NCBI GenBank assembly: GCA_903828665.1
Contig: CAIKMZ010000060.1
Coordinates: forward strand, 1-64,000
From: an uncultured beta proteobacterium
Lineage (GTDB): Bacteria; Pseudomonadota; Gammaproteobacteria; Burkholderiales; Burkholderiaceae_C
Length of the DNA: 64,000 nt
Reading direction: 5' to 3'
The translations under genes were made by a program, and so were the position numbers. The stretch's first letter is position 1. Each line of letters begins with the position of its first letter. Below, in pieces: positions 23,995-37,331 of the stretch. Under the pieces are notes generated by a model that searched no databases, was not told where the DNA came from, and saw only the letters and a program-made list of their open reading frames with translations.

Positions 23995-24786
23995 TTACCC
24001 GACAGAGATTTCGTCCACACCTTGACGGCGCATCACGGCCTCCGGCGTACCCGAGAACCACAACTGGTACATGGACGTGACCCACATGAACGCAAAACAC
24101 AGGCCCTGCAGCGCGCCTGCACCCATCGTGATGAAAGCAAACGGGTGATACAACTTGACGAGGTACCAGGAAATGACGTCAAGCGAAAGGCAAACAAATG
24201 GCAATGCGACCACCGTCGCCTTCAGCCAGACCGGCCGCCAATAGGCATGGCTGAAGATGCTGCCGACCAGGAAGAAGATGAAAGTCAGGCCAAACAGGTG
24301 GATATGCGATACCCGGACCAAAGTGAAGATATCAGTGCCGGTATCCTGCTCGGTCACCTTTTGCAGATTGTCCAATCCATTCAGGCTCACCAAGTGCGGA
24401 TTGCTGCCGTCGTGACAACTCAGGCAGCGCTTTTCTATCGTTGGCTTGATTGTCGATTCATACTTGGTCTTGTCCGCACCCTGTTGCACCCAGGAAACCA
24501 GCACATTGAGTTCGTCCGGCGGGAGCATGCTCGACATCGGCCCACGCAGCGCAGATTCCAGACGCGATCCCTTGCCGCTACCCGTATATGCAATGACCAA
24601 ATCGTCATAAGACAAATTGTTGGGATTCCCGTCGCGCCCAGAGTAAACGTGAAACAGATACAGCGCGGCGAACATGTAGGCAAGCCCCAGCACGAGCAAG
24701 ACTGCCGTTTGCATAACGCGCATGCTGGTCGGCAACTCGGAAAAATGCAGGTAATGTCGATGCAGTGGCGTGTTACTCGTACTCAT
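23995..24786 (-). CDS. Membrane protein with one c-type haem site
   Basis: The 263-residue protein has an N-terminal membrane segment (VMQTAVLLVLGLAYMFAAL), a periplasmic region with one haem site (EKRCLSCHDG, near residue 123), and four more membrane segments with His residues (SHIHLFGLTFIFF, IFSHAYW, LYHPFAF). The layout suggests a membrane-bound cytochrome passing electrons between the membrane and soluble cytochromes. I do not recognise a named family. It is read with the tetrahaem and dihaem cytochromes as a likely unit on the minus strand. The ATG at 24786 follows a weak GGAT site. Confidence 0.7.
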   Translation of the reverse strand: MSTSNTPLHRHYLHFSELPTSMRVMQTAVLLVLGLAYMFAALYLFHVYSGRDGNPNNLSYDDLVIAYTGSGKGSRLESALRGPMSSMLPPDELNVLVSWVQQGADKTKYESTIKPTIEKRCLSCHDGSNPHLVSLNGLDNLQKVTEQDTGTDIFTLVRVSHIHLFGLTFIFFLVGSIFSHAYWRPVWLKATVVALPFVCLSLDVISWYLVKLYHPFAFITMGAGALQGLCFAFMWVTSMYQLWFSGTPEAVMRRQGVDEISVG

Positions 24787-24861
24787 AATCTATCCGTTAA
24801 TTGGTGGGCTGAAAGTTCAAAAAACGCAAACCGGGCACGTTACCAGTGCACGGACAAACGG

Positions 24862-26091
24862 TCACTTCGATGGTGGCAGGATGAGGTAAGCCATGCCGCG
24901 CGCCTTCTGACGCGCATAGTGGGCAGCGAGGCCGTCAACCAACGCGTCATCCAGGGCTTCGGTCATCACGACCATTTCCTTGCTCTTTCGCTCGCCCTTC
25001 TTGTAGGCGTACAACACCTTCTCGAGGTAGTCGGCGCGTTGCGCAGCCAAAGCCGGTGAGCGGGGGTCGGTACTGTTGCCGTTGACACCGTGGCAACGGT
25101 CGCACCGCTCGGCCCATTCCGCAACCGTCATCGGTTTGGCAACCTTGACAGCCTGTGGGGCCTGGCTCGCGTAATACGCGGAAAGATTCTTGACCGTCGC
25201 CTCATCAAGCGACCCGGCCGGGCCCTTCATCGTGGCATCGCTACGCGACCCATCCTTATAGGCGCGCATGGCGCTGACAAAATATTGCGACTCCTGCCCG
25301 GCAAGGCTTGGCGTCGTCGGACTACCGCTCACGCCGCCCTCGCCGTGGCATCCAACACAACCCGCGGCGGCCGTCTTGCCTGCAGCGGCATTGCCGGACG
25401 CTGGTGTCTGCGCCTTCTCCGGCTTTTGCAGCGCATAGTAAAGCGCGATATTGCTGATCTCTGCCTCCGTCAGTTCAGACACCAGAGCCTTCATCATGTC
25501 GTTCTTGCGCTGGCCGCCCTTGTAGGCGCTGATCGCTGAAATGAAATACTTGGGATCCATGCCAATCAGGCTGGGCATGCCGGCCAATTTACTGACCCCG
25601 GCCTCGCCGTGGCAGCCACCGCAGGCTGCGGCTGCTGCCTTGCCAGCCGCTACCGCGTCCGGCTTCGCTGGAGCGGCTTTGACACTGGCGCCACTGGGAT
25701 CCGCCGGCTCACGGCTCGCGTAATAGGCCGCCACCTTCATAATGGCATCGTCGCTCAGGTACTTGACCGCATTGGCCATACCGCTTGCGCCACGCCCACC
25801 TGCCTGATAGACCTTCATCTCCAGATGAAGATAAACCGGCCGCTGTCCCGCGATGTTGGGAACACCCTTTTGACCACCGACGCCGTTGATACCATGGCAA
25901 CTTGCGCATGTGGTTTGCGCCACGCGCTTGCCTTCGGCCACGTCCTGTGCTGTGGCATACACCACTTTGAAGTCCGCAATGTTGGCAGCACCCATATTGA
26001 TGGTCTGAGCGACCGCGGTCGTCATCAACAAGCTGCCGAGAAAGCCGGCGAGCAGCCCCTTCAGGAAAACACTCTGCACATTTCGTTTCAT
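24862..26091 (-). CDS. Periplasmic tetrahaem cytochrome c (four class I domains)
   Basis: The 409-residue protein has a signal peptide ending TTAVAQ and four successive cytochrome c domains with haem sites CASCH, CGGCH, CVGCH and CDRCH, each followed by a P-x-L/I-A/I-G segment and a Met-rich C-terminal half. Domains resemble cytochrome c4 halves, so this is like two fused c4 proteins. The ATG at 26091 is chosen over a TTG one codon earlier; AAGGA lies 7 bases before it. It probably shuttles electrons in the periplasm between the membrane complexes of this island. Confidence 0.85.
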   Translation of the reverse strand: MKRNVQSVFLKGLLAGFLGSLLMTTAVAQTINMGAANIADFKVVYATAQDVAEGKRVAQTTCASCHGINGVGGQKGVPNIAGQRPVYLHLEMKVYQAGGRGASGMANAVKYLSDDAIMKVAAYYASREPADPSGASVKAAPAKPDAVAAGKAAAAACGGCHGEAGVSKLAGMPSLIGMDPKYFISAISAYKGGQRKNDMMKALVSELTEAEISNIALYYALQKPEKAQTPASGNAAAGKTAAAGCVGCHGEGGVSGSPTTPSLAGQESQYFVSAMRAYKDGSRSDATMKGPAGSLDEATVKNLSAYYASQAPQAVKVAKPMTVAEWAERCDRCHGVNGNSTDPRSPALAAQRADYLEKVLYAYKKGERKSKEMVVMTEALDDALVDGLAAHYARQKARGMAYLILPPSK

Positions 26092-26328
26092 CAACTATTC
26101 CTTGACCAATGATTTGTATCGGGAACAAATCTTGTTTGTGTATTCGCACCTGTTGCACCGCCAAGCAACAGGGGCGGGCCGAGCGGCACGCCCACATCAC
26201 TTTTCTGTTTCAACGTATCAAAAAATTTTAACACGAAGCCTTTTCGCGCCCTTCCTTGCGCCGGCCCAGTGCCGCAAGGTGTCAACGAGGGACGAAATGC
26301 CTCTGCTCGTCATCCAAAAGCGCCTTCA

Positions 26329-26997
26329 TCACTTCTTGGTAGGGGCCGTGCTTTCGTTGAACATGTAGATAACGGCAGCCCGCATTTCCGCGTCGCTCAG
26401 ATCCGCCAGGCCGCCACGCGCAGGCATGGACCCGCGACCATGGACTCCCGAAGCAATCACGGCGTCAAGGCCTCGGCGAACACGGGCCACCCAGGCGTCA
26501 CGGTCACCAATTTTGGGCGCGCCGTCTTTTCCGGTCAGATGGCATTCAACGCACTTGGCCTTGACCACTTGTTCGCCGCTGCGGACCTTTGGCGGAGCCT
26601 CCTTGTTGACAGGCTCGATCCAATTCCCGCCGGATTGATTCACCATATACGTAATAGCGCGTTCCAGATCAGCACTGCTCAAACCGGCACTGCCGCCATG
26701 TGCGGGCATGTTGCGGATTCCGTCCAGCGCATGTTGCGACAAGCTGGATAGCCCTTGCGCCCGGCGCTTTTCCCACGCGCTCTTGTTGCCTATGACTGGC
26801 GCGCCGTTTTCGCCGCGTTGGTGGCAGGAAGCGCAAACCTCCTTGACAATTTCTGCCCCGCTGCGCTCAGCACTGTGCGCAACTGGGATGCCCGTCGCAA
26901 ATGGAATCACGAGCGCCAGCAAAGCGCCACGAAGCGACCGCCCGGGATTCGAACCGATGAAGAAAGAAGTAGGGAACTCGAGTGGTTTTCTGCACAT
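26329..26997 (-). CDS. Dihaem cytochrome c (c5-like domains)
   Basis: The 222-residue protein has an N-terminal hydrophobic segment (LRGALLALVIPFATGIPVAHSA, a signal peptide or anchor) and two domains of the class I c5 type, with haem sites CASCH and CVECH and axial Met candidates in NMPAHGG and SMPARGG. The ATG at 26997 follows AAAGGCGAG with 8 bases spacing; upstream codons were rejected. First of three minus-strand cytochrome genes that diverge from the hexahaem gene. Confidence 0.82.
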   Translation of the reverse strand: MCRKPLEFPTSFFIGSNPGRSLRGALLALVIPFATGIPVAHSAERSGAEIVKEVCASCHQRGENGAPVIGNKSAWEKRRAQGLSSLSQHALDGIRNMPAHGGSAGLSSADLERAITYMVNQSGGNWIEPVNKEAPPKVRSGEQVVKAKCVECHLTGKDGAPKIGDRDAWVARVRRGLDAVIASGVHGRGSMPARGGLADLSDAEMRAAVIYMFNESTAPTKK

Positions 26998-27366
26998 TTT
27001 CAGATTCTCGCCTTTGTTAACAATCGCCCTGAGATCGCCTGTTTGAGAACACCAAGATTCACTTCGCCAAACCGGCAACACATCGCCCAAGCGCGACTGC
27101 ATCCAGCGGATTTTCGGCAAAGGCCAAACGACTATAGCCCAAATCCGGCGACCCCTTCTTCGCGGCAAAAACCCGGGAATACCCTCTCCTTTGTTCGCCA
27201 AATACCTTGATCTATCACAAAGGTATCACAAATATGTTAAGCAAAATGGACCTCACACGATGACAGACAAAGCGTGTCAGGGAGATTGGGCGCAGGGAGG
27301 ATTCGCCAGGCGCAAAGATCCCTTCTCATCAACGACCATTTGGCGCGAGAAAAACGAAAGGTGAGC
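26998..27366. other. Divergent regulatory region of the cytochrome island
   Basis: The 369 bases between the dihaem and hexahaem cytochrome genes contain no convincing gene. They are more AT-rich than the coding flanks. The notable element is the inverted repeat at 27203-27227, followed by TATGTT near 27234. Both cytochrome operons probably start from this region. Confidence 0.5.
27203..27227. promoter_or_regulatory. Inverted repeat with an embedded FNR-like sequence
   Basis: ATACCTT (27203-27209) and AAGGTAT (27221-27227) form a perfect 7-base inverted repeat with centres 18 bases apart. Inside lies TTGAT-CTAT-CACAA (27208-27221), matching FNR at 8 of 10 positions. It is placed between two divergent respiratory operons, so an operator is likely; which regulator binds is unknown. 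Confidence 0.4.
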
Positions 27367-28347
27367 ATGCCCAAACATATATTTCGATTGGTATCCCTGA
27401 TTGTTGGCTTGATGGTGGTTGCGGTCATCGCAAAACCATTTCTCACGGTTGATTCCTTTTACCGTTTTGGCCACTATCGAGCCAATGCGGTCCCTGAGAT
27501 TGCCGCCAAAGCACCCGTCTTGCAAACTGCCCGTTATTGCCGTGACTGTCACACCGAGCGCCACGCGCTTTGGTCAGCCGGCAGTCACAAGTCCGTCACC
27601 TGCGAGATTTGCCACGGCGCAGCGCAAGGGCATACCGACAAGAACAAGTTGCCGATCCCGAAGGACAGTTTGAAACTTTGTACGCTGTGTCACGAAACCA
27701 TGACGGGCCGACCCAGCACGCAACCTCAGATTCAGTTGTCCAAGCACAACCCCGGTCAACAGTGCATCGTCTGCCACAACCCACACTCACCCAAGATCGT
27801 CGCCAATGCCATCAAGGTCACAGGCGACGCGGCAACCGGCAAGAAACGCGCCGAAGACTGCGCGGGCTGCCATGGCGCCGAGGGGAACAGCCCGAACGAC
27901 ACCTGGCCCAACCTGGCTGGACAAAGCGCCGCCTATCTGGCCCGCATTCTCGGCGCCTACAAGTCAGGCGACCAGAAGAATGAGATTATGTCCCCGTTGG
28001 CGAACGACCTGAGCCCGGCCGATGTGCAAAATCTCGCCGCCTACTTCGCGAGCGTCCCCTGCAAGCCCATGCCGCCCACAGTCAAACCGGTCGGTAACAG
28101 CGCCGCAGGCAAGGTGCTGGCCGAGAACTGCATTGCCTGCCACGGCGAAGGCGGCCTGGGCGCGAACCCGGCCTGGCCCAAGCTTGCCGCGCAAAAGCCC
28201 GGCTACCTGGTCAACGTACTCAAGGCATTCAAGGCCGGTCTGCGCAAGGATCCCATGATGGCCGGTGTCGCCCGGGGCCTGAGCGACACCAACATGGCTG
28301 ATCTGGCTGCCTACTACGCTGCTCAAAGCTGCCAGCCTGCTAAATAA
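27367..28347 (+). CDS. Membrane-anchored hexahaem cytochrome c
   Basis: The 326-residue protein has one N-terminal anchor (RLVSLIVGLMVVAVIAKPFL), then four close haem sites (CRDCH, CEICH, CTLCH, CIVCH) of a NapC/tetrahaem-like region, then two c4-like domains (CAGCH, CIACH) with PxLAGQ and PKLAAQ loops. The ATG at 27367 follows GAAAGGTG. With the Fe-S protein and the NrfD-like protein downstream it gives the layout of quinol:cytochrome modules such as Geobacter CbcSTU or the A-B-C core of alternative complex III. Here it likely passes electrons between the NrfCD pair and periplasmic carriers. Confidence 0.82.
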   Translation: MPKHIFRLVSLIVGLMVVAVIAKPFLTVDSFYRFGHYRANAVPEIAAKAPVLQTARYCRDCHTERHALWSAGSHKSVTCEICHGAAQGHTDKNKLPIPKDSLKLCTLCHETMTGRPSTQPQIQLSKHNPGQQCIVCHNPHSPKIVANAIKVTGDAATGKKRAEDCAGCHGAEGNSPNDTWPNLAGQSAAYLARILGAYKSGDQKNEIMSPLANDLSPADVQNLAAYFASVPCKPMPPTVKPVGNSAAGKVLAENCIACHGEGGLGANPAWPKLAAQKPGYLVNVLKAFKAGLRKDPMMAGVARGLSDTNMADLAAYYAAQSCQPAK

Positions 28348-28364: not shown

Positions 28365-29231
28365 ATGAACAAAGATGATTCAAAGCCAACTTTGACAGCG
28401 CGACGCGCCTTCCTGGGCAAGCTCGGCGGTGCAGCAACCTGCGCGGGCGCAGCCGTCGGGGCTGCGGCACTGGGCGTGATTCCGGCTATCGCGGCCAAAC
28501 CCGAGGGTGCGCCAGCAGGCGCAGCGGCTTCGGGCGCCTCGTTCCCAACCAAGGACTACGACTGGTCGAAACACCAGTGGGGCTTTGGCGTCGACGCCAC
28601 CAAGTGCATTGGCTGCCTGCGTTGCGTCGAGGCCTGCAAGAAGGAGAACAGTGTTCCCCAGAATGCACACCAGTTCCGTACCTGGGTTGAACGCTATGTG
28701 CACATCGAAGGTGATCCAGACGTGCACATCGACAGCCAGCAGGACCCCGTGAACATAGCAGCCTCGGGCTCCGAGAAGGAGTTCCGGTTCGCCAATCGCT
28801 ACAAGGACGTGAAGGTTGAGAAAGCGTTCTTCGTGCCCAAACTGTGCAATCAGTGCAGTCATCCAGCCTGCGTTCAGGTCTGCCCGACCGGTGCAACCTT
28901 CCGAACTGAGGACGGGGTTGTACTGATCGATTCGACCTATTGCATCGGCTGCCGCTACTGCGTGCAGGCCTGCCCCTACGGTGCGCGTTACTTTGACGAG
29001 GACCGAGGCGTGGCCGACAAGTGCAACTGGTGCTATCACCGCATCACCAAAGGACTCAATCCGGCTTGCGTGGAGGTTTGTCCGGTCGGCGCCCGCGTCT
29101 TTGGCGACCAAAAGGACAAGCAAAGTCCGATCAGCCTGTTCATTCGCAACAACCGCGTGCAGGTCCTGCGACCCGAGACCGGCAACGCGCCGAATGTGTT
29201 TTACGTTGGCATCGACAAAGAGGTGAACTAG
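28365..29231 (+). CDS. Tat-exported NrfC/DmsB-like Fe-S protein with four [4Fe-4S] sites
   Basis: The 288-residue protein has a twin-arginine signal (TARRAFLGKLGGAATCAGA) and four cysteine clusters in NrfC/DmsB order: CIGCLRCVEAC, CNQCSHPACVQVC, CIGCRYCVQAC and CNWCYHRITKG...CVEVC. The proteins of this family sit on the periplasmic face and wire an NrfD-type quinone-binding subunit to a redox partner. The stop overlaps the NrfD start by one base (TAGTG). No molybdopterin catalytic subunit is adjacent, so the partner is more likely the upstream hexahaem cytochrome. Confidence 0.88.
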   Translation: MNKDDSKPTLTARRAFLGKLGGAATCAGAAVGAAALGVIPAIAAKPEGAPAGAAASGASFPTKDYDWSKHQWGFGVDATKCIGCLRCVEACKKENSVPQNAHQFRTWVERYVHIEGDPDVHIDSQQDPVNIAASGSEKEFRFANRYKDVKVEKAFFVPKLCNQCSHPACVQVCPTGATFRTEDGVVLIDSTYCIGCRYCVQACPYGARYFDEDRGVADKCNWCYHRITKGLNPACVEVCPVGARVFGDQKDKQSPISLFIRNNRVQVLRPETGNAPNVFYVGIDKEVN

Positions 29232-30415
29232 TGGAATCGATTATTCAATTCTCCCCTTATACGGGCTGGGTCTATCCGAACGAAACCGTCTTCGAATGGT
29301 CGGTGCTGATTGCCGTCTATCCCTACCTCACCGGGCTAGTCGCCGGCGCGTTCACGGTATCGAGCCTGTACCAGGTGTTCGGCTTTGAACGACTCAAACC
29401 GGTGGCGCACATGGCTTTGCTGACGTCGCTGAGCTTCATGTTTTTTGTTCCAGTTCCGCTGCTGATGCACCTCGGTCATCCGGAACGTGCATTCAACTCG
29501 ACGATCACGCCACATCTCTCCTCGGCCATGGCCATGTTCGGTTTCTTTGCGAGCTTCTATGTCGCCCTGCTGCTGCTTGAAGGATGGTTTGCATACCGAC
29601 CCTTCATTGTGCAGCAGGCCCAGGCGCGAACCGGGCTGCTGGGTCGCTTCTACCGCCTGTTGACACTTGGCTCCTACGACGTCTCCGAACATGCCATGGG
29701 CTACGACAAGAAGTGGATCTTCGCCTTGGCGGTGATCGGCATACCGGCTGCGCACGGCCTGCATGGATACGTCGGCTTCATGTATGGATCACTGAAGTCG
29801 CGCGAGTGGTGGTCATCCGACCTGATGCCGGTCATCTTCCTGTTCTCGGCGATCATTTCCGGCGTCTCGCTGCTATCCGTGCTCTATGTCGTATCGTGCA
29901 AGTTGCGCAAGATTCCGGTCGATCTGGCCTGCCTCAAAGGCCTGGCCTATACGATCTGGTCTTTCATCATGGTCGCGCTGGTGCTTGAAGCCCTGGAGTT
30001 CGCCAACATCGTTTACAAGGGCCGCGAGGGCGTTGACATGATCATGCAGTACGTGACCGGGCCCTTGCTATGGCCTTACTTCATTCTGCAGTTCGCCGTT
30101 GGCGCCATAACACCACTGCTGTGGCTGTCTTACATGATCTGGCGCGGCACTACGGGCCGTGCCCTCGTCGTGGGTGTCACGGTATGCGCCTGCCTGGTCC
30201 TGTTCTCCGTATTCATGATGCGATGGAACGTCGTGATTGGCGGACAGGAAATCTCCAAGACCGGCAAAGGGCTCCTGAGCTACAAGTTGCATCTGTTCGG
30301 CAAGGAAGGCGGGCTGGTCGCCGCCTTGTTGACGATGGCGCCCTTGGCTGTGCTCTATATATTGACACGGTTGTTTCCGCCGTGGACGGATCACGTGACC
30401 GACGCTCCCACGTGA
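29231..30415 (+). CDS. NrfD/PsrC-family quinone-interacting membrane subunit
   Basis: The 394-residue protein has about ten predicted membrane segments. The start is GTG at 29231, overlapping the Fe-S gene stop. The early HPERAFN motif (LMHLGHPERAF, about residue 80) and the YPYLTGLVAG start are typical of NrfD/PsrC/ActC proteins, which oxidise or reduce quinones at the periplasmic side without haem. It forms one unit with the two upstream genes. Confidence 0.87.
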   Translation: MESIIQFSPYTGWVYPNETVFEWSVLIAVYPYLTGLVAGAFTVSSLYQVFGFERLKPVAHMALLTSLSFMFFVPVPLLMHLGHPERAFNSTITPHLSSAMAMFGFFASFYVALLLLEGWFAYRPFIVQQAQARTGLLGRFYRLLTLGSYDVSEHAMGYDKKWIFALAVIGIPAAHGLHGYVGFMYGSLKSREWWSSDLMPVIFLFSAIISGVSLLSVLYVVSCKLRKIPVDLACLKGLAYTIWSFIMVALVLEALEFANIVYKGREGVDMIMQYVTGPLLWPYFILQFAVGAITPLLWLSYMIWRGTTGRALVVGVTVCACLVLFSVFMMRWNVVIGGQEISKTGKGLLSYKLHLFGKEGGLVAALLTMAPLAVLYILTRLFPPWTDHVTDAPT

Positions 30416-30609
30416 ATGGCCGGAAATTCCACGCGCCAGAACGCCTTCCTGCTTGGGCATTGAGCACATTTTGCCCCTACCGCAAAGGTAACGGACGCGT
30501 GACGGCTTCGCCAGTTGCGCGACCGGTCCATGAATACATTTCTCGGACGCAAAGCGCATCAACCATCAGCATCATTCATCTCTCAACAGACCAGTTTGGA
30601 AAACTCCCC

Positions 30610-30900
30610 ATGAAAAACCTTGTCATCGCATTGATCACCGCCATCGCCGTATCAGCACCCGCCTTGGCGGACGAGGGGATCGCCAAGGCCAAGAAATGCA
30701 ACACGTGCCACTCCATTGACAAGACCAAGGTTGGCCCCAGTTTCAAGGACTTGGCCAAGAAGTACGCCGATCAAAAGGACGCGGTTGGAAAACTGACCAA
30801 CACGGTCATCAAAGGGAATGGTGGTGCAATGCCGGCCAATTCACAGATCAGTGAAGCGGATGCCAAGGCACTGGTGGAGTGGATCCTGTCTTTGAAGTAA
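30610..30900 (+). CDS. Small class I cytochrome c (c551/c552-like)
   Basis: The 96-residue protein has a signal peptide (MKNLVIALITAIAVSAPALA), one haem site (CNTCHSIDKTKVGPSF) and the axial Met in GGAMPAN. It is a soluble periplasmic electron carrier. Upstream in-frame codons for 180 residues are non-coding-like and rejected. It sits 194 bases after the NrfD-like gene and 279 before the nine-haem fusion, which suggests it carries electrons between these complexes. Confidence 0.88.
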   Translation: MKNLVIALITAIAVSAPALADEGIAKAKKCNTCHSIDKTKVGPSFKDLAKKYADQKDAVGKLTNTVIKGNGGAMPANSQISEADAKALVEWILSLK

Positions 30901-31179: not shown

Positions 31180-33195
31180 ATGCGTCTTGAGCGTTCGGCC
31201 CTGTGGACCACTGCGGTCTGTCTTGCGAGTCTGTTTTTGGTCCTGCCCGCCAGCGCCGCTACTGCTGCTCCCACACCGACAGCACCTCCATCACTTGACA
31301 ACGCCACCTGCTTGAGCTGCCATGACGGCAAGAAGAGCAAGCTGGAAGTACCCGGTGCGGAAAACAAGCCGCGCTTGCTGCGCAGCATCGCAAGCGACAA
31401 GTTCGCCCAGAGCGTTCATGCCAATATGCAATGCGTGGCATGCCATAGCGACATCGTGGACCTTGCCGACAAGGGCAACGCACACACCAAGGATCCGGCC
31501 GTCCCGCTGAAGAAGGTCGATTGCGCGGGCTGCCACGAAGAATTGTGGGAACAGACCGTGAAACGGGGTCGGGCCACCGAACAACCACGATTGGGCGTGG
31601 TGGCGAAGAATATCGAGGCCTATCGGAAGTCATTCCATGCACGCCCCAATGCTGACGACAAGACCCAGCCCAACGCCAAGTGCGACAACTGCCACGACAC
31701 GCACAGCTTCAACGTTCCGCCAAAGAATACGCCGCAGCACACGCAGTGGCGCCTGAGCATTCCCGAAGTCTGCGGCAAAACCTGCCATACAGAACAACTC
31801 GAAGCCTATCTGGGCTCGGTCCACGGCCAGGAAAACAGCAAGAAGATGCTGGCGCAAGGCGCAGTCTGCTCGGACTGCCACACAGCCCATTCGATCAGCA
31901 GCACCTCGGGTGACGCCTTCAAGCTGACCGTCTCCAGCAACTGCGGCAACTGCCACGTGGACAAACTGGAGTCATACAAGGACACGTTCCACGGCCAGGT
32001 CAGTACGCTCGGCTACGCCTATACCGCCAAGTGCTACAACTGTCACGGCAGCCACGAGATCCTGCGCGTCAGCAACCCGAAGTCGATGGTTCACCCGGAC
32101 AACCGGCTGAAGACTTGCCAGACCTGCCACAACGCGAAGAAGGGCCTGCCCGACGTGCCGGCCGGTTTCGCCAGCTACCAGCCACACGGCAATGCGCATG
32201 ACTTCAACAAGTACCCGCAAATCTGGATCGCCTGGCAGATCATGGTGCAATTGCTAGTCGGTACCTTCGGCTTCTTCTGGCTGCACACCGCGCTCTGGTT
32301 CTACCGCGAATACAAGGAGCGCAAGGAACGCGCTGGTCAGCCGCACATCAAGCCTGACTCGGTGCCTGCGCAATACAAAGGGAAGCACGTTCAGCGGTTT
32401 ACCCCTATCTGGCGCATTGCCCACATCACCTTTGCCCTGAGCCTGATGGTGCTGACGCTCACCGGCATGCCGCTGTTCTACTCCAGCGTCAGCTGGGCGC
32501 CAACCCTTATGAAGGCACTTGGCGGAGTGCACACCGCTGGCATCATCCACCGCGTGGCAGCCGTGATCTTTGCCGGCGTGTTCTTCTGGCACCTGATCTA
32601 CATGGTCATCGGCATCGTGCGCAACCGCAAGACGTTCAAGATCATGGGCCCGACCTCGATGGTGCCCAATCTGCAAGATGGCAAGGACATGCTGGCGATG
32701 TTCCAGTGGTTCTTCGGCCAAGGCCCGCGTCCGAAATTCGACCGCTGGACCTATTGGGAGAAGTTCGACTATTGGGCTCCGTTCTGGGGGGTCACCATCA
32801 TCGGCGGCAGCGGCCTGATCATGTGGTTGCCAGGCTTCTTCGGCGCCTTCCTGCCGGGCTGGATCTTTAACGTGGCAGCCATCTTCCACGGCGAGGAAGC
32901 GTTCCTGGCGGTGGTGTTCCTGTTCACCGTGCACTTCTTCAACAACCACTTCCGCCCGGACAAGTTCCCGCTTGAAGTGGTGATGTTCACCGGCACTTTC
33001 TCGCTGGAAGAGTTCAAGCATGACCACGGCGTCGAGTACCAGCGACTGGTGGACAGCGGCGAGTTGGAGAAATACCTGGTCGATGCGCCGTCGCCCGCCA
33101 AGCTGGCCGCCTCGAAGGTGCTGGGCTTTACCCTGATCACGATTGGCCTGACCTTGCTGACACTGGTCGCCATCGGGTTCTTCACAAGTCATTGA
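31180..33195 (+). CDS. Nine-haem cytochrome c fused to a membrane cytochrome b domain (CbcL-like layout)
   Basis: The 671-residue protein has a signal peptide (to about residue 27), then a periplasmic domain to about 345 with eight CxxCH sites and one CxxxCH site (CGKTCH, near residue 198), then a membrane domain with about five segments and conserved His (FWLHTALWF, WRIAHITFALSL, GIIHRVAAV, FFWHLIYMV, AIFHGEEAF, FTVHFFNNHF) of the FdnI/HydC cytochrome b type. This order matches Geobacter CbcL, an inner membrane quinol oxidase that feeds extracellular Fe(III) reduction. ATG at 31180 follows GGAAGG by 7 bases. A tetrathionate or thiosulfate reductase subunit is a weaker alternative. Confidence 0.8.
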   Translation: MRLERSALWTTAVCLASLFLVLPASAATAAPTPTAPPSLDNATCLSCHDGKKSKLEVPGAENKPRLLRSIASDKFAQSVHANMQCVACHSDIVDLADKGNAHTKDPAVPLKKVDCAGCHEELWEQTVKRGRATEQPRLGVVAKNIEAYRKSFHARPNADDKTQPNAKCDNCHDTHSFNVPPKNTPQHTQWRLSIPEVCGKTCHTEQLEAYLGSVHGQENSKKMLAQGAVCSDCHTAHSISSTSGDAFKLTVSSNCGNCHVDKLESYKDTFHGQVSTLGYAYTAKCYNCHGSHEILRVSNPKSMVHPDNRLKTCQTCHNAKKGLPDVPAGFASYQPHGNAHDFNKYPQIWIAWQIMVQLLVGTFGFFWLHTALWFYREYKERKERAGQPHIKPDSVPAQYKGKHVQRFTPIWRIAHITFALSLMVLTLTGMPLFYSSVSWAPTLMKALGGVHTAGIIHRVAAVIFAGVFFWHLIYMVIGIVRNRKTFKIMGPTSMVPNLQDGKDMLAMFQWFFGQGPRPKFDRWTYWEKFDYWAPFWGVTIIGGSGLIMWLPGFFGAFLPGWIFNVAAIFHGEEAFLAVVFLFTVHFFNNHFRPDKFPLEVVMFTGTFSLEEFKHDHGVEYQRLVDSGELEKYLVDAPSPAKLAASKVLGFTLITIGLTLLTLVAIGFFTSH

Positions 33196-33261: not shown

Positions 33262-35019
33262 ATGGAAATAGTCACAACCGATGTCGCCATCATTGGCGCC
33301 GGGGGCGCGGGATTACGCGCCGCCATCGCGCTGGCCGAGGCCGACCCGAAGTTGCGCATCGCACTGATCTCCAAGGTCTACCCGATGCGCAGCCACACCT
33401 GTGCCGCTGAAGGCGGCGCAGCTGGCGTCATCAAGAAGGACGACAGCTTTGACCTGCACTTCGACGACACGGTCGGAGGCGGCGATTGGCTGTCAGACCA
33501 GGACTGTGTCGAATACTTCGTCAAGGAAGCGCCCAAGGAACTGACGCAACTCGAGCACTGGGGTTGCCCCTGGAACCGCGAAGCCGATGGCTCGGTGGCC
33601 GTGCGCCCGTTCGGCGGCATGAAAAAGAAGCGCACCTGGTTTGCGGCCGACAAATCAGGCTTCCACATCCTGCACACGCTGTTCCAGACCACTCTGCAAT
33701 TCCCATCGATCCAGCGCTTTGACGAGTATTACGCGCTCGATCTGCTGGTAGACGACGGCCGCTGCCAAGGCGTTACCGCCATGGAAATGCGCAGCGGCAT
33801 GATCAAGCAATTCCACGCCAAGTCGGTCATCATTGCCGGCGGTGGCGCAGGGCGCATGTTCCCGTTCAGCACCAACGGCGCGATCAAGACGGGTGACGGC
33901 ATGGCGCTGGCCTACCGCGCCGGCGTGCCGCTCAAGGACATGGAGTTTGTGCAATACCACCCGACCGGCTTGCCCAACACCGGCAGCCTGCTGACCGAGG
34001 CCTGCCGTGGTGAAGGCGGCGTTCTGCTCAACAAGAACGGCCGGCGCTACCTTCAGGATTACGGGATGGGCCCTGAGACGCCGCTGGGCAAACCGCAACT
34101 CAAGACCATGGAGCTCGGCCCGCGCGATCGCGTCAGCCAGGCCTACTGGCACGAACTGCAAAAGGGCAACACCGTCACCACGCCGTGGGGCGAATGCGTG
34201 ATGCTCGACATGCGCCACCTCGGTGAGAAATACATCGACGAGCGCCTGCCGCTGGTGCGCGAACTGGGCATTGCCTACCTCGGCGTTGACATCGTCAAGG
34301 AGGCGATCCCCATCCGCCCGGTTGTTCACTACATGATGGGCGGCATTTCGACCAATACGAAGGCGGCGACCCAACTGCCAGGTCTGTTCGCAGCTGGCGA
34401 ATGCGCCTGCGTCAGCTTGAACGGCGCGAATCGGCTCGGTTCCAACTCACTGGTTGAGTTGCTGGTGTTCGGCAAGAGCGCTGCGATGTCGGCCATTGAA
34501 CACATGAAGGGCCTGCCGGCGCCGAACAAGGCAGCACTGGAAGCCAGGGCCGATGAATCCCAGGCCCGTGTGCGCGAGTTGTTCCAGCGCACCGATGGCA
34601 CTGAGTCGATGTCCGGTCTGCGCAAGGAAATGATGGACACGATGGAGAAGAATGCCGGCCTGTATCGTGAAGAGAACGGCCTCAAGGAAGCGGTTGCAAA
34701 GATCGCCGAACTGCGCCAGCGTTACCACAAGATCGTCCTGCATGACAAGAGCAACGTCTTCAACACGGACCTGTTCCAGGTGCTCGAACTCGGCTCGATG
34801 CTGGATTGCGCAGAGGCGCTGACCGTCAGCGCCCTGGCCCGCAAGGAATCACGCGGCGCGCACCAGCGGCTGGACTACGTGGAGCGTGACGACAAGACAT
34901 TCCTGCGCCACAGCATGGCCTATTACCAGGGCCAGAGCGCCCCGCGCCTGGACTATCTGGACGTCGTGATTACGAAGTCGCCACCCGGCGTGCGTGACTA
35001 CTCGGGAGACCACAAATGA
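33262..35019 (+). CDS. frdA: Fumarate reductase flavoprotein subunit
   Basis: The 585-residue catalytic subunit reduces fumarate to succinate on the cytoplasmic side. It has the FAD loop AIIGAGGAGLRAAIAL, the covalent-FAD histidine in RSHTCAAEGGAAG, the substrate motif HPTGLPNTGSLLTEACRGEGG and the late VHYMMGGISTN and NRLGSNSLVELLVFG segments of E. coli-type FrdA. GAAAGG precedes the ATG at 33262. The four-gene order frdABCD and small membrane subunits mark it as a fumarate reductase rather than a succinate dehydrogenase. Confidence 0.93.
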   Translation: MEIVTTDVAIIGAGGAGLRAAIALAEADPKLRIALISKVYPMRSHTCAAEGGAAGVIKKDDSFDLHFDDTVGGGDWLSDQDCVEYFVKEAPKELTQLEHWGCPWNREADGSVAVRPFGGMKKKRTWFAADKSGFHILHTLFQTTLQFPSIQRFDEYYALDLLVDDGRCQGVTAMEMRSGMIKQFHAKSVIIAGGGAGRMFPFSTNGAIKTGDGMALAYRAGVPLKDMEFVQYHPTGLPNTGSLLTEACRGEGGVLLNKNGRRYLQDYGMGPETPLGKPQLKTMELGPRDRVSQAYWHELQKGNTVTTPWGECVMLDMRHLGEKYIDERLPLVRELGIAYLGVDIVKEAIPIRPVVHYMMGGISTNTKAATQLPGLFAAGECACVSLNGANRLGSNSLVELLVFGKSAAMSAIEHMKGLPAPNKAALEARADESQARVRELFQRTDGTESMSGLRKEMMDTMEKNAGLYREENGLKEAVAKIAELRQRYHKIVLHDKSNVFNTDLFQVLELGSMLDCAEALTVSALARKESRGAHQRLDYVERDDKTFLRHSMAYYQGQSAPRLDYLDVVITKSPPGVRDYSGDHK

Positions 35020-35768
35020 CACAGCTAAAAAAGAGAATGGTTCAGCTCGAAGTGCTGCGCTATGACCCCGAAAAAGATACCGAGCCGCACTTTCAGAAGT
35101 ACACGGTGGAGTGCAATGAAGAGTGGGTGGTGCTCGATGCACTCAACGCCGTCAAGGAAACCATCGATCCGACGCTGAATTTCCGCTGGTCCTGCCATAT
35201 GGCGGTCTGCGGCAGCTGCGGCATGATGGTCAACGGCGAACCCAAGCTCTCATGCCACGCCTTCCTGCGCTCTTATGAAGGCGTGATCCGGGTCGAACCG
35301 CTGGCCAATTTTCCGATCGAGCGCGATTTGGTCACGGTGGCCGACGACTTCATCGAGAAGCTCAAACGCGTCAAGCCCTACATCATCCCGAAGGAAAAGA
35401 AGAGTATCGAGCAGGGCGAGTACAAGCAAACGCCAGCGCAATTGATGAAGTTCCGGCAGTTCTCGATGTGCATCAACTGCATGTTGTGCTATGCCGCCTG
35501 CCCCGAGTACGCGTTGCAGCCGAAGTTCATCGGCCCGGCGGCCATCGCTCTGGCACACCGTTACAACCTCGATTCACGCGATGGTGGTCGTGACGAACGC
35601 CAGGAAGTCATTGCCACCAACGAAGGCGTGTGGGAATGCTCATTTGTCGGCGCCTGCTCCGAAGTCTGCCCGAAAGCCGTGGATCCGGCCGGCGCACTGC
35701 AGCAGGTCAAGGTCGCCAGCACCATCGACTGGTTCAAGGAACATCTGTTACCGGGAGGCGCAAAATGA
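35016..35768 (+). CDS. frdB: Fumarate reductase iron-sulfur subunit
   Basis: The 250-residue protein carries three clusters: [2Fe-2S] in CHMAVCGSCGMMVNGEPKLSC, then CINCMLCYAACPEY and CSFVGACSEVCPKAVDPAGA. The PKFIGPAAIALAHRYNLDSRD segment is characteristic of E. coli-type FrdB. It conducts electrons from the quinol site to FrdA. Its start overlaps frdA (ATGA) and its stop overlaps frdC, showing translational coupling. Confidence 0.93.
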   Translation: MTQLKKRMVQLEVLRYDPEKDTEPHFQKYTVECNEEWVVLDALNAVKETIDPTLNFRWSCHMAVCGSCGMMVNGEPKLSCHAFLRSYEGVIRVEPLANFPIERDLVTVADDFIEKLKRVKPYIIPKEKKSIEQGEYKQTPAQLMKFRQFSMCINCMLCYAACPEYALQPKFIGPAAIALAHRYNLDSRDGGRDERQEVIATNEGVWECSFVGACSEVCPKAVDPAGALQQVKVASTIDWFKEHLLPGGAK

Positions 35769-36157
35769 GCCGCAAACCCTACATCCGCCAGGTTTCGAAA
35801 ACCAGCTGGTACCTGAAGCAACCGCGCTACATGCGCTACATGTCGCGCGAAGTGACATGCATCTTCATTGGCGCCTTTGCGCTGCTGATGGTTTGCGCTG
35901 TCGAGCGCCTGTCGCAGGGACAGGCCGCGTTCGAGTCCTTCATGGCCGCCATCACGGGCCCGTGGAGCTTCCTCGGGCTTTTCGTCATACTGGCCTTCGC
36001 TGTGCACAATGCCACCAACTGGTTCAATGTCACACCCAAGGCCATGCCGGTGCAGATCGGTGAAGAGTTCCTGAATGGCAAGTACATTGTTGGCGCTCAC
36101 TACGCGATCTGGATAGTTGCCTCGCTGGTGGTCTTGTTTTTCGCGGGAGTGATGTAA
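35765..36157 (+). CDS. frdC: Fumarate reductase membrane anchor subunit C
   Basis: The 130-residue protein has three predicted membrane segments and the FrdC N-terminus SRKPYIRQVSKTSWYLKQPRY. With FrdD it anchors FrdAB and binds quinol without haem. ATG at 35765 overlaps the frdB stop by 4 bases. Length matches E. coli FrdC (131). Confidence 0.92.
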   Translation: MSRKPYIRQVSKTSWYLKQPRYMRYMSREVTCIFIGAFALLMVCAVERLSQGQAAFESFMAAITGPWSFLGLFVILAFAVHNATNWFNVTPKAMPVQIGEEFLNGKYIVGAHYAIWIVASLVVLFFAGVM

Positions 36158-36159
36158 CC

Positions 36160-36501
36160 ATGGCCAAATCGAATAAACCCATTTTCTGGAGCCTGTTCGC
36201 TGCGGGCGGTACCCTGGCCGCATTTCTGGCGCCGGTGCTGGTGCTGCTGTTCCTGCTGCTCTCACTGGGTCATGCACCCGCCGTGCTGAGCTATGCGGGG
36301 CTGCATGCGTTTGCTGCGCACTGGTTCGGCAAGCTCTTCCTGCTTGCCGTGATCACGCTGTTCCTGTGGCATGCGGCGCACCGACTGCGCGTGACCGTCT
36401 TTGACTTCGGCCTGCGCCAGGATTCGGTCGTCGCCGTTGTGGTGTACCTGATTGCAGCCGCCGGAACAATTACCACGGCCCTGTGCCTGTTACGCATCTG
36501 A
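36160..36501 (+). CDS. frdD: Fumarate reductase membrane anchor subunit D
   Basis: The 113-residue protein has three predicted membrane segments, starts with NKPIFWSLFAAGG as in E. coli FrdD (119 residues), and has HAAHRLR after the second segment. It starts 2 bases after frdC. It completes the FrdABCD complex. The terminator follows 46 bases after its stop. Confidence 0.92.
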   Translation: MAKSNKPIFWSLFAAGGTLAAFLAPVLVLLFLLLSLGHAPAVLSYAGLHAFAAHWFGKLFLLAVITLFLWHAAHRLRVTVFDFGLRQDSVVAVVVYLIAAAGTITTALCLLRI

Positions 36502-36547
36502 GTGTTATCCTCTGGCCTTGAATCAACCCGTCACACTGCGCGGCGGG

Positions 36548-36570
36548 AGCCCCTTCGGGGGCTTTTTTTT
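36548..36570 (+). terminator. Rho-independent terminator after frdD
   Basis: AGCCCC-TTCG-GGGGCT is followed by a run of eight T. It ends the frd message, so rquA, 12 bases further on, needs either read-through or its own promoter. The rquA ribosome site (AAGG at 36571) abuts the T-run. Confidence 0.9.
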
Positions 36571-36581
36571 AAGGTCAATTT

Positions 36582-37331
36582 GTGAGCTCGAAGAAACCTG
36601 TACGCCTGTCGAACGCTGAATCACCACTGTCCATCGTGAACACGGGCTCAGCCTTTGCACCGGTTCCGGTCCCGGAATATCTGCAGAAGACCTACTGGTG
36701 GGCCTACGTCCACCCGAATGCGGTTCGCGTTTTTGAACGCCAATGGCTGGTCAACCTGATCTTGTGGGGCAACTTTGCTCGCCTGCGCGACGCAGCCCTG
36801 GACGAACTGGGCACGGTCATCAACGGCAAGATCTTGCAGGTGGCATGCGTCTACGGCAACTTCACTGAACATGTCGTCAAGCGCTTGGGGCCGCAGGGGC
36901 ATCTGGATGTGATCGACGTTGCGCCGGTCCAGATCACGAATCTGCACGCCAAACTCAAGGATGCGCGCCAGGTCACGGTGCAGCGCCAGGACTCCACCGA
37001 CCTGCAGTTTGCGGACGCCAGCCGTGATGCCGTCGTGGTGTTCTTTCTGCTGCATGAGCAACCGGCGGATGTGCGGCAAAGGACGATCGCCGAAGCCCTG
37101 CGTGTCACGAAACCGGGCGGCAAAGTCATCTTCGTGGACTACCACCGTCCTGTGGCCGTCAATCCGTTTCGTTACATCATGGTGCCGATCCTGACCACGC
37201 TGGAACCGTTCGCCATGGACATCTGGCGCAACGAAATCACGGACTGGCTGCCGGCAGGTCTTGCAGTGGCCAAGGTGGAGAAGCAGACCTACTTCGGCGG
37301 CCTGTACCAGAAGGTCGTCATCACGCGGTGA
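36582..37331 (+). CDS. rquA: Rhodoquinone biosynthesis methyltransferase-like protein RquA
   Basis: The 249-residue protein has a UbiE-like SAM fold but shows the RquA pattern: YLQKTYWWAYVHPNAVRVFE, then LVNLILWGNFARLRD, and an altered motif I (LQVACVYGNFTEHV) in place of the canonical D-x-G-x-G. RquA is known to replace the 2-methoxy group of ubiquinone by an amino group, giving rhodoquinone. The start is GTG at 36582. The position right after frdABCD fits, because fumarate reductase needs a low-potential quinol such as rhodoquinol. Confidence 0.83.
   Translation: MSSKKPVRLSNAESPLSIVNTGSAFAPVPVPEYLQKTYWWAYVHPNAVRVFERQWLVNLILWGNFARLRDAALDELGTVINGKILQVACVYGNFTEHVVKRLGPQGHLDVIDVAPVQITNLHAKLKDARQVTVQRQDSTDLQFADASRDAVVVFFLLHEQPADVRQRTIAEALRVTKPGGKVIFVDYHRPVAVNPFRYIMVPILTTLEPFAMDIWRNEITDWLPAGLAVAKVEKQTYFGGLYQKVVITR

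Follow-up and report, generated by a model that had tools for sequence, protein, structure and literature searches.

In passages of the work on Rhodospirillum rubrum, RquA is described as an enzyme that transfers an amino group from S-adenosylmethionine (SAM) to ubiquinone, with Mn2+ (PMC9814641), and passages of a survey by Stairs et al. in 2018 report that in many bacteria rquA lies at a distance of up to 15 genes from those for complex II and from other respiratory genes, for which an operon was suggested (PMC5953543). For Candidatus Thiosymbion oneisti, which carries frdABCD as well as rquA, the authors propose, in the passages concerned, that rhodoquinone could replace the missing menaquinone and serve anaerobic respiration (PMC8269255). 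These last two studies are the only literature that our search returned on rquA together with frdABCD. Here, we analyze a stretch of 64,000 nucleotides (hereafter the window) from the 3.74-Mb genome, 98.5% complete, of an uncultured beta proteobacterium, in which the four genes of an Escherichia coli-type fumarate reductase, frdA, frdB, frdC and frdD, are followed on the same (+) strand by rquA (33262-37331).

From its gene content, this cassette is predicted to be a module for rhodoquinone-dependent fumarate respiration, with a probability that we put at about 0.85, and it is a well-supported example of a pairing that is already known, because the 2018 survey reports rquA near complex II genes. 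In the model that we favor, RquA would follow the published chemistry of its family and exchange a methoxy group of ubiquinone for an amino group derived from SAM, giving low-potential rhodoquinone; at low oxygen, dehydrogenases would reduce rhodoquinone to rhodoquinol, and the four-subunit FrdABCD would oxidize rhodoquinol while converting fumarate to succinate. Production of rhodoquinone, its use by FrdABCD and the timing of gene expression are points that we infer. The interest of such an arrangement is that the synthesis of a rare low-potential quinone is tied to the enzyme that presumably consumes it. Rhodoquinone occurs in some Rhodoferax. The genus includes a cultured fumarate user, R. 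ferrireducens, and we count the description of fumarate as its electron acceptor, in passages of PMC2755013, in favor of the model. The same arrangement in Competibacteraceae would name a quinone for the anaerobic fumarate reduction that passages of PMC4930944 propose for glycogen-accumulating wastewater bacteria.

Identity of the reductase, of RquA and of the candidate quinone

An initial annotation, made from the sequence, had described a complete E. coli-type frdABCD with a gene of RquA pattern 80 bases past frdD, and both the exact coordinates and the family profiles bear this out. Overlaps of 4 bases join frdA to frdB and frdB to frdC, and 2 bases separate frdC from frdD; the frdC start at 35765 was chosen from the sequence and the match to 1kf6_C, the mechanical list of open reading frames (ORFs) giving a longer frame, 35630-36157. 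In profile searches, FrdA, FrdB and FrdD pass the NCBIfam equivalog cut-offs; FrdC reaches 77 bits, under the NCBIfam cut-off of 143, and 115 bits against Pfam Fumarate_red_C, over the cut-off of 24. All four subunits of an E. coli-type quinol:fumarate reductase are therefore present in the right families, FrdC by Pfam and not by NCBIfam. The best solved match of each of the four is PDB 1kf6, which we take to be E. coli fumarate reductase. The five residues that we assume to line the quinol (Qp) site in E. coli, namely FrdC E29, FrdD W14, H80 and R81, and FrdB K228, have counterparts here and in 13/13 FrdC loci from a sample of 399 genomes of the order; the FrdC E29 position is also marked by the 4kx6 row of the structure-match alignment. 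Elsewhere in the genome, another flavoprotein of complex II, which shares 47% identity with FrdA, has Gln where FrdA has Glu, presumably the difference between succinate dehydrogenase and fumarate reductase at that flavoprotein position.

The product of the last gene scores 320.9 bits against the NCBI model NF038261, whose cut-off is 175; no UbiE/MenG model gives it more than 43.1 bits, and Pfam Ubie_methyltran gives 40.6 bits. We placed it in a tree of 73 rows. Of these, 18 are other methyltransferases, chosen as the next-best matches of the RquA model and without a family search to name them. The window protein falls within RquA, and the split between the RquA side and these 18 has a support of 100/99, the tree program warning of long branches that join there. 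Its closest RquA relatives among named records come from Rhodoferax and from betaproteobacterial metagenome-assembled genomes (MAGs), and by these relatives the genome is of the Rhodoferax type. The motif FLLHE.P is found in all 17 RquA-proper rows, in 6/7 rows of a more distant RquA group, in 5/8 divergent rows and in 0/18 other methyltransferases. Both strings cited in the initial annotation, the altered SAM motif I (VACVYG) and YWWAYVHPNA, are present in the translation; the altered motif, written as [AST][CAH][AV][YF]G, occurs in 16/17 RquA-proper rows and in 0/18 others, and the canonical SAM motif pattern matched just two of the 18 other methyltransferases, so that its absence proves little. 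D112 is invariant in 25 aligned rows and D137 stands 25 residues further on, a pair that was compared with the SAM-site aspartates D118/D143 of the R. rubrum enzyme by spacing alone. Profile search and tree agree in placing the protein in RquA and not in UbiE, so the name first given to the gene stands.

The search for menaquinone genes in the genome also came out as the rhodoquinone interpretation had anticipated. MenD over the cut-off was found in none of 21 genomes, this one included, with weaker matches from other enzymes in all 21; at E<=1e-40, MenD was found in 0/17 chosen genomes, again including this one, versus 7/14 controls. No MqnA-family match was found in the genome itself, and those in the 17 genomes are limited to three, all weak, at 27.5 bits (G142; cut-off 26), 20.5 bits (G203) and 19.6 bits (G299), the G203 score being 31, over the cut-off, when neighboring pieces are added. 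Because MenD over the cut-off and MqnA-family matches are both missing, the searched genes suggest rhodoquinone as the sole low-potential quinone. Together with the profile and the tree of RquA, these absences support the proposal of fumarate respiration via rhodoquinone as far as the genes can indicate it.

Recurrence of the frd-rquA linkage

Linkage was surveyed in named genomes, at the 80 loci with the best RquA matches. In 35 of them, the frd genes lie directly upstream of rquA and in the same orientation, with gaps of 12-292 bases; frdA is missing or cut by a contig end in 6 of the 35, and some of the other 45 loci are too short upstream (for example, L163 and L213). The linked loci comprise 27 of Rhodoferax-type betaproteobacteria and 8 of Competibacteraceae types, one of them labelled Synechococcaceae. 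This last contig (L207, Synechococcaceae cyanobacterium) has a frd-rquA cassette nested among those of Competibacteraceae, and is probably a mislabelled MAG. FrdC is present in 13 genomes of a sample of 60 from the genus, and rquA adjoins in 12 of these 13. In the order sample, FrdC was found in 13 genomes, RquA over the cut-off in 36, and both in 7 (Fisher p 3e-5, uncorrected for kinship); the genes adjoin in four of these seven (the present genome, G000, and G264, G030 and G203) and are apart in G064, G103 and G329.

The adjacency of frd and rquA is more than chance. A reverse order, with rquA upstream of frdA, is seen in G264 and G417, and because their Frd proteins form a clade separate from the frd-rquA type, the pairing probably arose twice, in opposite orders. 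The gene linkage, which had been proposed to connect synthesis and use of the quinone, is kept in relatives and has a second form in the reverse order. Most frd-less loci nest among frd-bearing ones in the RquA tree (unrooted, made by a quick method and with long branches), which suggests an old cassette from which frd was lost later. Apart from these patterns, a pair of RquA genes passes the cut-off in G203 (L043, L082); one adjoins frd, and the other has no frd in the stretch examined. Three loci (L288, L289 and L291, in G248, G271 and G322) hold an E. coli-type frd whose FrdA is 75-86% identical to that of the window, in genomes with no RquA over the cut-off, no MenD and no MqnA-family match.

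Cytochrome genes upstream and a second RquA-like protein

Coordinates of the cassette and of the genes upstream are collected in Table 1.

Table 1. Features of the frd-rquA cassette and its upstream region in the window
Feature	Position	Strand	Remarks
c-type cytochrome	27364-28347	+	possible extension of module
4Fe-4S protein	28365-29231	+	possible extension of module
NrfD-like membrane protein	29231-30415	+	possible extension of module
small monoheme cytochrome c	30595..30900	+	
CbcL/MtrH/MtoC-like cytochrome	31180..33195	+	8 CXXCH, 1 CXXXCH, b561-like membrane domain; adjoins frdA on its 5' side
frdA	33262..35019	+	flavoprotein subunit of E. coli-type fumarate reductase; has the Glu in MRSHTCAAEGG
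frdB	35016..35768	+	iron-sulfur subunit; counterpart of E. coli FrdB K228 (Lys) retained
frdC	35765..36157	+	membrane anchor; counterpart of E. coli FrdC E29 (Glu) retained
frdD	36160..36501	+	membrane anchor; counterparts of E. coli W14 (Trp) and of H80, R81 (His-Arg) retained
terminator-like hairpin	36547..36570	+	followed by eight T; in the frdD/rquA gap; same form in ten close relatives
rquA	36582..37331	+	rhodoquinone biosynthesis enzyme; GTG start

The gene directly 5' of frdA, overlooked in the initial annotation, encodes a 671-residue protein whose nine heme motifs precede the membrane domain; it has a match to Ni_hydr_CYTB, a signal-like helix and six hydrophobic stretches. CbcL, MtrH and MtoC are described, in passages of PMC9129911 and PMC6295460, as quinone-cytochrome oxidoreductases with an N-terminal multiheme c domain and a six-helix diheme b domain. 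Among the linked loci of the Rhodoferax type, 21 can be assessed, and in 16 of these a CbcL-like gene immediately precedes frdA (6 of the 27 stop short upstream; L169, L173, L179, L184 and L198 are assessable and have none). The gene is found in 0/8 linked loci of the Competibacteraceae type. In seven frd-less loci, the gene is directly before rquA, L215 having a fragment only; since these seven form one clade nested among frd-linked loci, they are probably a remnant after frd loss, and an independent origin of a cbcL-rquA pair without frd is unsupported. RquA is present in 27/30 genomes of the genus sample with a CbcL-like match and in 14/30 without; the order sample gives no clear co-occurrence, RquA being over the cut-off in 4/26 (about 2.3 expected) and just under it in two more.

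Further upstream, the c-type cytochrome, 4Fe-4S and NrfD-like genes, also found upstream in two other loci (L161 and L170), possibly encode a quinone-cytochrome complex. Beyond them lies a cluster (23995-27201) of minus-strand c-type cytochrome genes at 24862-26094 and 26329-27201 with a protein without Pfam match at 23995-24786. FNR boxes, sought in six upstream stretches, are limited to two sites, at 27207 and 31093, with two mismatches each. The word rhodoquinone is absent from the CbcL survey, and the literature returned for rhodoquinone and multiheme cytochromes jointly consists only of work on purple bacterial reaction centers.

A second RquA-family protein is encoded in the same genome (L002, 1354-2148, corresponding to G000:C97:14381-15175). 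A single membrane helix is predicted at its N terminus, and it shows FLLHE.P as well as an altered SAM motif, which are both present throughout the 23 rows of its clade (a count in which one gene appears twice). Its score against the RquA model, 115 bits, is under the cut-off; in the tree, a long branch carries its clade, on the side of RquA. The protein co-occurs with RquA. Among 100 genomes, one per genus of the family, RquA over the cut-off occurs in 4/6 carriers of the second protein versus 4/94 others (p 2.5e-4, ignoring kinship); within the genus it occurs in 35/40 carriers versus 6/20 non-carriers (p 1.3e-5, again ignoring kinship), and in the order sample in both of the two carriers. 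No conserved neighbors of the second gene were recognized by eye at 7 loci. Plasmid records gave only matches below 60% identity, for RquA (15 records) as for the second protein (5 records).

Alternative readings and comparison with known systems

Several observations weigh against a rhodoquinone-dependent fumarate reductase module. The tested Qp residues are identical with and without rquA and are therefore uninformative on the quinone used; indeed, no residue in FrdB, FrdC or FrdD was found that separates rhodoquinone from menaquinone use, the five tested being the same in every one of the 13 FrdC loci. The gap between frdD and rquA holds a G+C-rich hairpin, which the initial annotation had overlooked, and because it is terminator-like, a shared frd-rquA transcript appears doubtful; rquA may thus be transcribed from a promoter of its own or by read-through. 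Relatives other than those in Table 1 have short gaps without a hairpin, a loose test labels 24 of 39 gaps terminator-like in some way (often on four T only), and a simple consensus terminator scan did not list the hairpin. In one genome of the genus sample, G548, which is 84% complete, frd genes are present and rquA was not found. In the order sample, 6 of the 13 FrdC-bearing genomes (G142, G248, G271, G299, G322 and G328) have neither RquA over the cut-off nor MenD, and for five of them the MqnA family, too, gives nothing over the cut-off, G142 being narrowly over; no other quinone genes were seen by eye among the open frames beside these rquA-less frd genes (6 loci; no family search was run). 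Conversely, no FrdC was found in 29 of the 41 RquA-bearing genomes of the genus, so that rhodoquinone probably has further uses. From these two counts, frd and rquA are often, not always, together.

The rquA-less frd genomes, the FrdC-less rquA genomes and the hairpin are all what one would expect if FrdABCD were mainly ubiquinone-linked, as a second succinate dehydrogenase, and rquA were a neighbor serving other enzymes, but the linkage recurs in two gene orders and FrdA has Glu where the second flavoprotein has Gln, and we hold this reading to be quite improbable. Menaquinone as the true partner was rejected on the missing MenD and MqnA-family matches. We likewise rejected a UbiE-like methyltransferase in place of RquA: the two share a fold family, as the Ubie_methyltran match reflects, but the scores against NF038261 and the UbiE/MenG models, the tree and the FLLHE.P motif put the protein in RquA and leave this alternative hardly any probability.

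A wider module is unlikely, if less so, in which rhodoquinone would be a hub: through the CbcL/MtrH-like protein it would trade electrons with multiheme cytochromes of the periplasm as well, fumarate being only one acceptor. The position of the CbcL-like gene before frdA or, in frd-less loci, before rquA, the upstream cytochrome, FeS and NrfD genes shared with L161 and L170, and the co-occurrence with RquA in the genus sample are in its favor; its absence from the Competibacteraceae-type loci, the order sample and the probable remnant nature of the seven frd-less loci speak against it. We therefore treat the hub as a lead, not a result. It is conceivable, at slightly longer odds, that in the Rhodoferax lineage rhodoquinone is a two-way hub, in which the nonaheme cytochrome, along with the neighboring NrfD, FeS and cytochrome genes, would link the pool to periplasmic or extracellular partners, FrdABCD would discharge it to fumarate, and the second, membrane-anchored RquA-family enzyme would modify or tune the quinone.

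The preferred reading, a rhodoquinone-dependent FrdABCD, sets the locus beside several described systems. E. coli FrdABCD is the top solved match for all subunits, and its Qp residues are retained; the membrane subunits are only weakly alike, and E. coli has menaquinone (its MenD control was positive), whereas here no MenD passes the cut-off and rquA is present instead. R. rubrum RquA, in the passages of PMC9814641, belongs to the same NCBIfam equivalog and shares an altered SAM motif I and the spacing of two Asp, 25 residues apart, whereas the rquA of the window, known here from sequence, adjoins frdABCD. The CbcL/MtrH/MtoC proteins resemble the upstream gene product in its nine c-heme motifs and six-helix b-type domain, compared by published build and not by alignment, and differ in that the gene of the window precedes frdA and rquA. 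Candidatus Thiosymbion oneisti likewise combines frdABCD and rquA with missing menaquinone, in passages that do not state gene linkage. As in the survey of Stairs et al., finally, rquA is close to complex II genes, and the locus adds to what section 8 of that survey describes a five-gene cassette and an adjoining cytochrome.

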